Shown here: one piece after another, positions 59,716 to 63,943 of the stretch
Layout of the letters: the number at the start of each line of letters is the position of its first letter
Position numbering within the stretch: position 1 is the stretch's first letter
Assembly (NCBI RefSeq): GCF_019636075.1
Contig: NZ_JAHBYG010000007.1
Coordinates: forward strand, 1-64,000
Origin: Ferrovibrio sp.
GTDB taxonomy: Bacteria; Pseudomonadota; Alphaproteobacteria; Ferrovibrionales; Ferrovibrionaceae
DNA: 64,000 nt
Reading direction: 5' to 3'
The notes under the pieces: generated by a model
The model's database searches: none
What the model was told of the DNA's origin: nothing
Seen by the model: the letters and a program-made list of their open reading frames with translations, nothing else
Program-made: the position numbers and the translations under genes

Positions 59716-59894
59716 GGTTTTTTCCGATTGGGATTTTCATCTGATGAGGCAGGCGGCAATGGCGGCCCGTTCAAACCTCGTGTCCGGGCCGGCCCGGCGC
59801 AATCTAGCCAAGCATTGGGGCATAGACCAGAGCCCGGCCTGTCTGCCACACTCCCGCACCCGGATTGAACAAGCATAAGGCAAGGGAGACGGCG

Positions 59895-60284
59895 ATGAGC
59901 ATGCAGGATTGGACAGCCTATCGTAAGGGCCTGGGCACGGCGGTGGGCAAGCTGGGCGAAATGAACCCGGAGATGATGGCCGCCTATCGTGCCTTGGCCA
60001 AATCCGGCAAGCAGACCGGCAATCTGGGCGAGAAGGTGCGCGAATTGATTGCGCTGGGCGTTGCGGTTACCGCGCGCTGCGATGGCTGCATCGCGGTGCA
60101 TACCGCCGCTGCGCGTAAAGCCGGCGCCACCGAAGGCGAAATCGCCGAAGCCCTGGGCGTGGCGATTGCAGTGAATGCCGGCGCCGCGCTGGTTTATTCC
60201 GCCCGCGCCGTGGAAGCCGCCGATCTGCTGGCCCCGGTTGCTGCACCGGTTGCCGCCCCGGCTGCCGCTGCCGATAAGGTGTAA
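59895..60284 (+). CDS. Carboxymuconolactone decarboxylase/AhpD-family protein
   Basis: A 129-residue CMD-fold protein; ATG 59895 follows AGGGAGA. It has [35 protein letters not shown] with the CxxC of AhpD-like peroxidases, and an Ala/Pro tail ([13 protein letters not shown]) with a small repeat. Likely a thiol-based peroxidase or reductase rather than a decarboxylase. It lies 4 bp upstream of the crotonase. Confidence 0.88.
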
Positions 60285-60288
60285 CATC

Positions 60289-61101
60289 ATGACCGACCGT
60301 TACGCCGCTTATGGCAGCCTGCGTTTCGAACGCCCGGCCGACCGCGTGTTGGAAGTGATCATGGGCCGCGACGATGGCCGCCTGAGCACCGCCGGCCATG
60401 ACCTGCACCGCGAACTGGCCGAGGTGTGGCGCGATATCGATGCCGATCCCGATGTGGCGGCGGTGATCCTGCGCGGCGCCGGCAAGGGCTTCTCGGCCGG
60501 CGGCGATTTTTCGCTGATCGAGGATATGACACAGGATTTCGATGCCCTCACCCGGGTTTGGAAGGAAGCCCGCGATCTGGTTTACAACGTGATCAACTGC
60601 TCCAAGCCGATCGTATCCGCCATGCATGGCCCGGCGGTGGGCGCCGGCCTGGTGGCCGGTCTGCTGGCGGATATTCCCATCGCGGCGAAAAGCGCCCGCA
60701 TCATCGATGGCCATACCAGGCTGGGCGTGGCGGCCGGCGATCATGCCGCCATCATCTGGCCGCTGCTCTGCGGCATGGCGAAGGCGAAATACCATCTGCT
60801 GCTCTGCGAGCCGGTGAGCGGCGAGGAAGCCGAGCGTATCGGCCTGGTGGCGCTCTGCACCGAGGAGGCCGATCTGCGGCCCAAGGCGCTGGAGGTTGCC
60901 ACCCGGCTGGCCAATGGTTCGCCCACCGCGCTGCGCTGGACCAAATATGCGCTCAACAGCTGGCTGCGCATGGCCGGCCCGGGCTTCGATACCTCGCTGG
61001 CGCTGGAAATGCTCGGCTTCCGCGGGCCCGATGTGCGCGAAGGCCTGGCCTCGCATCGCGAGAAACGCCCGCCATCCTTCGCCAAGACCGCGCCGTTGTA
61101 G
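60289..61101 (+). CDS. Crotonase-superfamily protein lacking the usual hydratase glutamates
   Basis: A 270-residue enoyl-CoA hydratase/isomerase-fold protein. The CoA/oxyanion regions [14 protein letters not shown] (about 63-76) and [18 protein letters not shown] (about 111-128) are clear. The two Glu of classical hydratases are absent: GAGLVAGL stands for GGGCELAM and [19 protein letters not shown] for PEIxLGxxPGxGG. The AGDxxAxIWP form is known in a branch with Asp at that site, so it may act on an unusual CoA ester. It sits 17 bp upstream of the first kinase. Confidence 0.85.
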
Positions 61102-61118
61102 AGCGATCGGAGGCATCG

Positions 61119-62570
61119 CTGTTCGCCCTGCTGGATATCCGCACGCTGTTCGTGATCACCTTCGTGGTCACGGTGGTGCAGGCGATTGCCTGGATGCTGA
61201 TGTGGCGCAGCAACCGCTCCATTCCCGGCCTCGGGCTATGGACCTGCGGCATCTACATATTGGCGGCTGCCTTCCTGCTTTACATCCTGCGCGGCACGAT
61301 CCCCGACATGCTGTCGATCACGGTGGGCAATGTCGGCGTGGTGCTGGGCCATGCCTTCATGATCATGGGGATTGCCGATCTGCTGGAACGCCCGCGCCCG
61401 CTTTTCATGGCCTGGTTTCCGGTGCCGCTGGTGGCGGTGCTGTGGAGCTACTGGATGGCCACCGATCCCACCAATCTGGGCTTGCGCGTCACCGTTTCCT
61501 CCTGCATGTCCACCATACAATACAGCGCCATGTGCTGGGTGATCCTGGGGGCCGACCGGCTTACCCTGGCGGTGCGCGGCCCGCTATCGACGGTGTATGG
61601 CATCCATGCCGGTTTGTCGCTGGTGCGTGCGGTGATGACGGCGCATGAACCGGTGTTCGGCGATTTCATGGCCTCCAGCAGCGGGCAATCCTTCTGGGTG
61701 CTGGAAATTCTGCTCGCCGGCATCGCGGTGGCGGTGTCTTTCTCGGTGTTGCTGGGCGGGCGGCTGGCGGTGGATCTGGCCGAACGCAATCTTAAACTGG
61801 CGGAGGAAGTGGCCGACCGCCGGCACTTGCAGCAAACGCTGTCGGAAGCGCTGATGCGCGAATCCGGCATGCGGCGCGAACAGCGGCAATTCATCGGCTT
61901 GATCGGCCGCGAATTCCAGCGGCCATTGCAGACGATTTCCGATGCCGGGCAGGAATTGCGCGGCCAGATCGGCGAGCAGCCGGTGATCCAGCCGCGCCTG
62001 GATGCGGTGGCCGATGCGGTGCGCCGCCTGCGGCTGTTGATCGATACCTTCCTGCTGGATGAAAAACTCGCCAGCGGCACTATGGAAATCCGCCAGGATG
62101 CCGTGGCGATCGGCGCGCTGCTGCGGCAGCAGGCGACCAGCCAGGCGCAACCGCGGGCGGAACAGCGGCTGCAACTCAGCCTGGCCGAACCCGATCTGGT
62201 GGTGGCTGGCGATGCCGCCATGCTGGGCGTGGTGTTCGGCAACCTGTTCGACAATGCGCTGAAATATTCGCCCACCGACCGCGCGGTGGATGTAACGCTG
62301 CGGCGCGAGGGCGACGAGGCGGTGGTGACGGTGCGCGATCATGGCATCGGCATTCCCGAACGCGAACTCAGTGCGGTGGGGCGCCGGTTCTATCGTGCCA
62401 GCAATGCCGCCGGCGTGCCGGGCACCGGCCTGGGCCTGTATGGCGCCGGCCGGCAGATCCAACTGCATGGTGGCCATTTCGATATCCAGAGCAAGCCCAA
62501 TGAAGGCACCCGCATCACCGTGCGCCTGCCGCTGCTATCGGCGCTTGCAGACCTGGATGGCGCGGCATGA
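61119..62570 (+). CDS. Membrane histidine-kinase paralogue A: intact ATPase, phospho-acceptor His replaced by Arg; probable CTG start
   Basis: A 483-residue protein. No ATG/GTG/TTG lies in frame near the conserved N-terminus; CTG 61119 has CGGAGG five bases upstream and aligns with the ATG of the following paralogue ([11 protein letters not shown] / [11 protein letters not shown]). Seven or so membrane helices (to about residue 215) precede a coiled coil. The H-box reads [16 protein letters not shown] with Arg (CGC) for His. The ATPase is intact: [13 protein letters not shown] (N), DHGIGIPE (G1), [11 protein letters not shown] (G2). It could phosphorylate a partner in trans. It overlaps the next gene (ATGA). 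Confidence 0.85.
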
Positions 62571-63943
62571 GCAATCTGGTGGATACCCGCACGTTGGTGG
62601 TGGTGCTCGGCTGCATGCTGTTGTTGCAGGTGATGGGCTGGCTGTTGATCTGGCGCATGCTGCCGCGCCTGCCGGGCATAAGGCTGGCGGTATCGGGTTC
62701 GCTGCTGCTGTTGCCGGCGATGGCGCTGGTTTCCACGCGCGGCGAATGGAGCGGCTGGTATTCGGTGGTGCTGTCGAATTATCTCGGCATCGGCGGGCTG
62801 GCGCTATCCAGCCTGGCGCTGTCGGCCATGCTGGGGCAGAAAACCCGGCCATGGCTGCCCCAGGCGGGCTTTCTGGCGGCGCTGCCGGTCTGGCCGCTAT
62901 ATATGCTGCTGCCGCTGGATCAGGGCGGCATGCTGTCGCTGCTGGCCGGGTTGTTCAGCGGCTATTTCGCTTTTGTGATGGCACGCGACTGCCTGCGCGC
63001 CAAGAACGTGCAGCGCGCGGTGGTCTGGCAGCTTGGCGGCCTCAACATATTTCATTGTCTGGTGCAGGCCCTGCGCGGTTGCGATGGCCTGGCGATGCTG
63101 CTGCGCGGCACGCCGTTGGTGCCCGCGCCGCTGCAAGGCCTGTGGTTCCTGGAACTGATTCTCTACGCGATCTTCTTTTTCATCGGCGTGATCGGTCTGA
63201 TCGGCGCCCGTATCGGCATCGAACTGACCGAGCAATACGAAACATTGCAGGAGGAAGCCGCGCTGCGCGGGCGGTTGCAGAACGAACTTACCGTGGCACT
63301 GGCGCAGGAAAGCACGGCACGGCGCGAGCAGCGCGACTTCCTCGACATGGTGGGCCATGAATTCCGCACGCCGTTGGCCATCGTGGACCGCGCCGCAGAA
63401 TTGATGGTGATGAAACTGCCGCCCGAGATGCGCCCCGCCACCGCGCCGCCGCGCCGCACCTTGCGTATCATGCGCAGCGCGGTGCGTCGCCTGCGGCTGT
63501 TGATCGATGGCTTTCTCACCGAGGAGCGCTTGCTGCGCGGCGACAGCGTGCCGCGCCAGGAAGTGTTGGCGCCGCTGGATTTCCTGCGCCAGATCCTGCG
63601 CGAATTGCCGCCCGAGGATCTCGAGATGATGGCAGCGCTGCCTTTCATCGAGCCGCCGCCGCGTGTCTTGGGCGATCCCGAATTGCTGCGGCCGGCGCTG
63701 GCCTATGCGGTGGATCTGGCGTTGTCGCCCGATAGCTGGCGCGGTCCGCCGGCACGGATCGAAATCGCGCCGGAAGCCGGCGGCCTCACCCTCAGCTTCG
63801 ATCTGCGCGATGCCGAGGCGGGGCGTTTCCAACTGTCCAGCGCGGCGCGGCTGATGCAGGCGCAGAAAGGTCGTTTCTCGGTGCGCGCCAATGCCGATGG
63901 CAGCCAGAAGATAATCCTCTGGTTGCCCAGACCGGCGCATTGA
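62567..63943 (+). CDS. Membrane histidine-kinase paralogue B: phospho-acceptor His present, ATPase degenerate
   Basis: A 458-residue paralogue of the preceding protein with the same layout: about seven membrane helices (to about 220), then a coiled coil with STARREQRDFLDMVG. The H-box is FLDMVGHEFRTPLAIV, a normal His site. The C-terminal domain (about 340-458) has no N box (LLRPALAYAVDLAL has no Asn), no DxGxG (DLRDAEAG instead) and no GxGxG, so it should not bind ATP. It is best read as the phospho-acceptor half of a split kinase with paralogue A. Start overlaps the paralogue A stop by 4 bp. Confidence 0.88.
   Translation: MSNLVDTRTLVVVLGCMLLLQVMGWLLIWRMLPRLPGIRLAVSGSLLLLPAMALVSTRGEWSGWYSVVLSNYLGIGGLALSSLALSAMLGQKTRPWLPQAGFLAALPVWPLYMLLPLDQGGMLSLLAGLFSGYFAFVMARDCLRAKNVQRAVVWQLGGLNIFHCLVQALRGCDGLAMLLRGTPLVPAPLQGLWFLELILYAIFFFIGVIGLIGARIGIELTEQYETLQEEAALRGRLQNELTVALAQESTARREQRDFLDMVGHEFRTPLAIVDRAAELMVMKLPPEMRPATAPPRRTLRIMRSAVRRLRLLIDGFLTEERLLRGDSVPRQEVLAPLDFLRQILRELPPEDLEMMAALPFIEPPPRVLGDPELLRPALAYAVDLALSPDSWRGPPARIEIAPEAGGLTLSFDLRDAEAGRFQLSSAARLMQAQKGRFSVRANADGSQKIILWLPRPAH

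Follow-up and report, generated by a model that had tools for sequence, protein, structure and literature searches.

The window analysed here, a stretch of 64,000 nucleotides of a Ferrovibrio sp. genome (positions 1 to 64,000 of contig NZ_JAHBYG010000007.1, assembly GCF_019636075.1), carries near its end two adjacent genes, A and B, that encode histidine-kinase-like membrane sensors with reciprocal defects. Protein A has an intact ATPase domain and has lost the phospho-accepting His, while protein B has kept the His and has a degenerate ATPase domain. Strong sequence evidence points to a real, natural and conserved split of a membrane histidine kinase across these two paralogues, and it is likely that A phosphorylates His264 of B in trans in a mixed A-B dimer, with B then passing the phosphoryl group to a linked response regulator.

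A sequence-only reading of the window had described A and B as paralogous membrane sensors of the same layout with overlapping genes, A keeping all ATPase boxes and having Arg at the phospho-His site, B keeping the His and having lost the N, G1 and G2 boxes, and these descriptions were borne out. Both frames are open, the proteins are about 30% identical over A residues 4-381, and the AlphaFold models, which are of monomers (mean predicted local distance difference test scores of 85.8 for A and 89.3 for B), predict seven long N-terminal helices in each, the seventh running on into the helix of the dimerisation and histidine phosphotransfer (DHp) domain. With Pfam, A matched HATPase_c at 92.9 bits and HisKA at 14.6 bits, below the cut-off of 26.9, and its residue 264 is Arg. 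B matched HisKA at 33.9 bits with His at the site, and a HATPase_c match was absent from its Pfam listing at E up to 1. By alignment, the N box of B retains its Asp but not its Asn, Lys or Tyr, the glycines of the G2 box are gone, and DAEAG stands at the G1 site where A has DHGIG. Neither protein is a HisKA-type kinase with both domains in one chain; each provides one half. Comparison with solved histidine kinases by Foldseek gave a stronger best match for the A model (E 1.3e-11) than for the B model (E 7.1e-7), and a PDB sequence search with B returned three weak matches, all histidine-kinase-type sensors. The NCBIfam matches listed (for A the best 25 of 79, for B 8) all fell below their cut-offs, and at E up to 1 Pfam matched neither A nor B to a CheA or CheW domain. 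Of the 39 HisKA matches in the window's genome, all but that of B have a HATPase_c match behind them. A belongs to the 13 of 51 HATPase_c matches that lack a HisKA match in front, so that the lack of HisKA is by itself not rare.

Homologues were sorted into A-type and B-type clusters from protein searches, among the matches listed, with candidates capped at about 8000 per search. Rows for alignment were taken from three protein-search listings (28 of 120; 10 of 46 besides the window's own; three new ones of 12). The resulting 20 A-type rows include near-copies, P0051 being the window's own A with a later start, and the 16 B-type rows include P0167, a partial protein of 283 residues. The phospho-His site held a His in none of the 20 A-type rows and in all 16 B-type rows, and the N-box Asn379 showed the opposite distribution (20/20 A, 0/16 B). 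Every A row had the G1 and G2 glycines that were checked (two and three, respectively) and the other key N-, G1- and G2-box residues, apart from an Ile that replaces the first N-box Asn in P0061. B rows had lost the N-box Asn, Lys and Tyr in 16/16 cases and had an Asp at the G1 site in five, P0008 and P0009 among them. The Thr of the HExxT motif was kept in 16/16 B rows and in 0/20 A rows. Relatives of A with an intact His or of B with an intact ATPase, which the sequence-only reading had named as the finding that would speak against a split kinase, were searched for and not found (0/20 A and 0/16 B rows). The reciprocal losses are conserved together, a point that this reading had proposed to check. 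By sequence, the pair has the make-up that marks a split histidine kinase, namely a His-only protein and an ATPase-only protein. Chance or an assembly error does not account for the pattern, since it is seen again in other species; these explanations and a frameshift were rejected, the pattern being found in other assemblies and the copies in two further genomes (G004 and G007) being free of stops.

Conservation was counted on a non-redundant subset, from which near-copies and distant rows were left out (15 of the 20 A rows, 10 of the 13 B rows then known, and 15 of 24 rows of complete kinases, 7 + 8). At the His site, the A rows of this subset have four Arg, four Ala, three Gly, two Gln, one Asn and one Asp, and the B rows have His in 10/10. 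A His shifted to a neighbouring position in A was considered as well and rejected, for no DHp His position is common to all A rows; five of the 15 were listed without any His in the DHp domain. The DRAAE stretch after the His, which from known complexes we take to be where the regulator would dock, is present in 10/10 B rows and largely in complete kinases, and is lost in A. Two B-type proteins, P0168 and P0169, had no Pfam domain listed though HEFRTPL is intact, and their catalytic ATPase (CA) domain is even more degenerate.

The gene pair was also found to co-occur. Among ten genomes of the genus, full-length A and B are present together in four (the window's genome G000, G003, G004 and G007) and neither is present in six. 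The gene order is A, B, C in G004 and G007, where C is a complete paralogue (HDFRTPV plus ATPase boxes), and A, B alone in the window's genome. G003 carries five tandem paralogues, A1, A2, A3, B and C (G003:C1:669700-676900): three His-less with intact ATPase, one His-only and one complete. A further complete paralogue, S (HEFRTPL, intact ATPase), lies apart from the cluster with an adjoining regulator frame in seven of the ten genomes, including G000 and G003. A B-profile search of the contigs of the named genomes found the loci of G004 and G007 once more and, as a third locus, a distant match of 24%. A class-wide search with this profile covered 385 genomes, with the four best candidates scored in most, and gave matches in 12. 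Three full-length relatives from outside the genus, which belong to a second family, proved complete and have a regulator adjoining; partial matches occurred in six further genomes. Because S, C and the relatives outside the genus are complete, and a regulator stands next to S and to the outside ones, the ancestor most likely had a complete kinase with its regulator, from which A, B and C would be a derived expansion.

Downstream of the cluster, each of the four genomes that carry A and B has a gene for a pentapeptide-repeat protein and, after it, a response regulator gene. Pfam identified both proteins in the window's genome, G003 and G004, the regulator being OmpR-type (Response_reg plus Trans_reg_C), and the G007 copies of both genes align with those of G004. 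The sequence-only reading had suggested looking downstream of the window for a receiver-only gene; a response regulator does lie just past the window end, with Trans_reg_C in addition to Response_reg. This cluster-type regulator (66-75% identical where aligned) was found only in the four genomes that carry the pair. The seven genomes with S, including G000 and G003, have S-type regulators at 49-55% identity, and G008 gave only regulator matches of about 32-35%. On the window's contig (C67), A's own match was the only HATPase_c match between 39063 and 83348 (E up to 0.001), indicating that there is no complete kinase at the window's locus. The absence of C from this locus further indicates that C is not needed to keep the pair.

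In a tree of 52 proteins, the 16 without the His form one clade and the 11 without the ATPase form another, each set off by a single branch with 100/100 support, and 25 complete kinases, their relatives, fall outside both. It left out the near-copies P0003, P0004, P0048, P0049, P0051 and P0052, the fragment P0083 and the distant P0148, and it included three loci added from the class-wide search; P0167-P0169 came later. Long branches were flagged in the tree, so that how the clades connect is less certain than the existence of each clade. In the A lineage, mean identity was 0.41 over the stretch between the His site and +19 and reached 0.70 both in the second DHp helix and in the CA domain; the corresponding three values in the B lineage were 0.80, 0.72 and 0.43. 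The complete relatives counted had CA identities of 0.50 and 0.66, below the 0.70 of A. A has thus lost the His, HExxT and the presumed regulator-docking stretch while keeping the dimerisation helix and the ATPase, and B has kept the acceptor and the presumed docking surface with the ATP site gone. Ratios of non-synonymous to synonymous substitution rates (dN/dS) between G004 and G007 were 0.15 for A, 0.19 for B and 0.14 for C, with no stops; for S, two pairs of copies gave 0.06 and 0.34. Taken together, the alignments, tree and genome comparisons show reciprocal losses, a single origin, conservation, co-occurrence and a linked regulator.

We propose that A acts as the ATP-binding half, which would bind ATP, and B as the phospho-accepting half. 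The two would dimerise through the conserved second DHp helix and an in-register coiled coil. All rows counted (15/15 A, 12/12 B, and 7/7 and 8/8 complete rows) have 51 residues between the last membrane helix and the His site, so that an A-B coiled coil could form in register. Within the mixed dimer A would phosphorylate His264 of B, and B would hand the phosphoryl group to the OmpR-type regulator two genes downstream; B may also act as the phosphatase of this regulator through HExxT, the motif lost in A. If A phosphorylates B in a mixed dimer in this way, both sensors would be needed for a signal, giving an AND-like input. In G003, three A-type sensors could compete or cooperate for one B acceptor, an unusual fan-in. 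It is conceivable, although we would put it somewhat short of an even chance, that the family forms an obligate combinatorial split kinase, in which one B is the common acceptor for one to three A proteins (A1-A3), a membrane signal would get to the regulator through mixed dimers alone, these dimers provide AND/OR logic, and the arrangement is kept in all the species in which it was found.

The mixed dimer suggested by the sequence-only reading therefore stands in part: co-occurrence, the linked regulator and the equal spacing fit it, but the complete C in three of the four genomes is a possible alternative partner. Several observations weigh against phosphorylation of B by A. The model needs A to act in trans, and a cis geometry would defeat it. 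C could be the partner of either A or B where it stands in the cluster, and S, which lies apart from the locus in the window's genome beside a regulator of its own, could cross-talk. The loop between the DHp helices differs in length, the His site to L304 loop taking 36-42 residues in A, 43-47 in B and 41-47 in complete kinases, and this difference could disfavour a symmetric bundle. Loss of the ATP site is incomplete in some B rows, P0008 and P0009 having a G1-like DPGAG and P0011 a G2-like GAGLGL, with the N box present in 0/16. The remnant CA region of B had a dN/dS of 0.30, the highest of the cluster regions measured (0.18 for the CA domain of A and 0.24 for that of C). The co-absence of A and B rests partly on incomplete assemblies, G009 being only 72% complete. 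Finally, the A-type clusters P0055 and P0060 have in common a longest contig of 59,100 bases on which no B cluster was among the matches listed (longest contigs shown, candidates capped), and A may therefore occur without B there.

The adjacency of C allows for other arrangements. The order A, B, C in three of the four genomes, with the 51-residue register common to all rows counted, would also suit a three-membered kinase complex in which A phosphorylates C, or C phosphorylates B, and A-B alone is a reduced version in the window's genome; the lack of C at the window's locus makes this rather unlikely. Alternatively, B might serve the regulator solely as a phosphatase or phosphate sink that other kinases charge or oppose, and A would have no part in the phosphorylation of B. 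Retention of HEFRT in 16/16 B rows and of the presumed docking helix in 10/10 would agree with such a role. However, the phosphatase activity of HisKA kinases does not strictly require the His, which is fixed in B nonetheless, and A would be left with a fully conserved ATPase and no substrate, so that we consider this improbable. That A and B are merely decaying paralogues of a complete S-type kinase under relaxed selection might be read from the varied residues that replace the His in A and from the variable CA domain of B. It is rejected on the tree, dN/dS and conservation: each loss has a single origin, there are no stops or frameshifts, dN/dS is 0.15 for A and 0.19 for B, the CA domain of A is better conserved than those of the complete relatives counted, and the cluster is kept with its regulator. 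We regard decay as barely credible.

A further possibility is that A is a regulatory pseudokinase of the DivL or RetS kind that tunes a complete kinase (C or S) by heterodimerising, its ATP binding being structural or regulatory and B not being phosphorylated by it. C adjoins A and B in three of the four genomes, DivL appears in the Foldseek list of the A model (rank 28, E 4.4e-10), and RetS appears in the lists of both models. DivL of Caulobacter has a histidine-kinase fold without the phospho-His, as A does, and in DivL the His is replaced by Tyr; the His of A is likewise replaced, with Tyr in no row. Interplay between kinase and pseudokinase has been reported (PMC9491836). The ATPase of DivL is dispensable according to the same paper, which cites others for it, whereas conservation of the boxes in 20/20 A rows argues against dispensability in A. 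The window's locus moreover has A and B but no C, and the loss of the ATPase in B would be left unexplained. Regulation by a pseudokinase A therefore seems unlikely. The same source describes two native kinases that heterodimerise, a truncated one giving no significant signal, and heterodimerisation of a Caulobacter hybrid kinase without the conserved His has been put forward as a speculation (PMC11481889).

Phosphorylation of B by A would have a close precedent. The sequence-only reading knew of no described membrane kinase pair built like A and B, a statement that is out of date because FasB/FasC of group A Streptococcus (the four-gene fasBCA locus) was reported in 2025 (PMC12675982). FasB and FasC are reported to form a membrane heterodimer and no homodimer in two-hybrid assays; the FasC kinase domain is dispensable and FasC is called a pseudokinase, FasC His246 is required, the DHp and ATPase part of FasB is sufficient, and the FasB kinase domain is proposed to phosphorylate FasC. 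Like this nearest precedent, A and B are membrane sensors of one locus, and their genes are adjacent with the His/ATPase pattern of such a pair. FasB may, however, keep its own site H284, so that the loss there may not be reciprocal, whereas the His loss of A is fixed across its clade. The FasB/FasC regulator is ComE-like and that of A/B OmpR-type, and one genome of the A/B family has three A per one B, unlike FasB/FasC.

Mycobacterium tuberculosis has one kinase cut into two domain-sized pieces, HK1 carrying the ATPase and HK2 the His, whereas A and B are two full-length sensors. HK1-HK2-TcrA (Rv0600c-Rv0602c) is listed as one system of two kinase genes and one regulator (PMC8965865, PMC9274095). 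The division of activities in CheA3/CheA4 of Rhodobacter sphaeroides, invoked by the sequence-only reading, is as described in PMC3591291: neither protein autophosphorylates alone, and together the P4 domain of CheA4 phosphorylates P1 of CheA3. That pair belongs to a cytoplasmic chemotaxis cluster with whole domains absent and no membrane sensor, whereas the losses in A and B are a point loss and a remnant. According to the same paper, SMART lists 1556 of 42417 HisKA proteins without HATPase, some of which could be split kinases, and modelling predicts that a kinase/phosphatase split can yield ultrasensitive or bistable responses. EnvZ H243A and an EnvZ G2-box mutant complement each other in trans with phosphorylation restored (PMC4734776); the division of labour is the same, but that pair was made artificially from one protein and A/B are natural paralogues. 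Hik36-Hik43 of Synechocystis, called a split histidine kinase with parts that interact in two-hybrid assays (PMC7656254), differs from A/B in being CheA-type, with distant genes and an HPt domain on one part. A literature search on the genus listed a single paper, whose title concerns another subject, and none on the Ferrovibrio A/B pair. Division of a kinase between two proteins is already known from CheA3/CheA4 and FasB/FasC, and A/B is a variant of it with fixed reciprocal losses.

The features of the locus are collected in the table below. The frame of A given by the sequence-only reading was confirmed, but the codon at its proposed start is CTG. No ATG, GTG or TTG occurs in the A frame from 90 bases upstream of this codon to the GTG that is the first ordinary in-frame start after it, and the N-terminus of A is therefore uncertain. 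Most other A proteins start with MLDIRTL or similar; the close homologues P0057, P0058 and P0059 have also been called with shorter N-termini than most, as if a non-standard start were shared in this clade. A scan of the locus for promoters and terminators gave nothing above shuffled sequences (one promoter-like match against 1.1 expected, four terminator-like against 3.5). Upstream of the cluster lie an enoyl-CoA-hydratase-like gene (window 60175-61101) and an AhpD/carboxymuconolactone-decarboxylase-like gene (window 59865-60284), both named by eye, and similar reading frames likewise lie upstream of the cluster in G003.

Table. Features of the A/B locus (window positions; C67 and L064 positions where so marked)
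Feature	Position	Strand	Remarks
GGAGG, ribosome-binding-site-like	61109..61113	+	5 nucleotides before CTG 61119; from sequence and codon listing
Gene A: predicted membrane sensor with seven helices; DHp lacks the phospho-His, ATPase (CA) domain intact	61119..62570	+	coding to 62567
Gene A start, uncertain	CTG 61119 or GTG 61152		
A residue 264, Arg at phospho-His site (GREFQRPL)	61908..61910	+	codon
A N box FDNALKYS	62247..62270	+	intact
A G1 box DHGIGIP	62337..62357	+	intact
A G2 box GTGLGL	62421..62438	+	intact
ATGA, A stop overlapping B start	62567..62570	+	from sequence
Gene B: predicted membrane sensor with seven helices; DHp has the phospho-His, CA domain degenerate	62567..63943	+	coding to 63940
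B residue 264, conserved His (GHEFRTPL)	63356..63358	+	codon
B CA-domain remnant	63662..63928	+	limits approximate; strands and helices still predicted
Pentapeptide-repeat protein	C67:64205-65470 (L064:9206-10471)		just past window end; about 410-440 residues across four genomes
OmpR-type response regulator	C67:65504-66313		just past window end; two genes downstream of B

Histidine kinases are textbook homodimers. In this family, evolution appears to have made a broken pair like that of the EnvZ mutants, retained it across several species and, in one genome, multiplied the ATPase-only half. The A/B pair may thus serve as a natural system for heterodimerisation, for cis and trans geometry and for two-input kinase logic.

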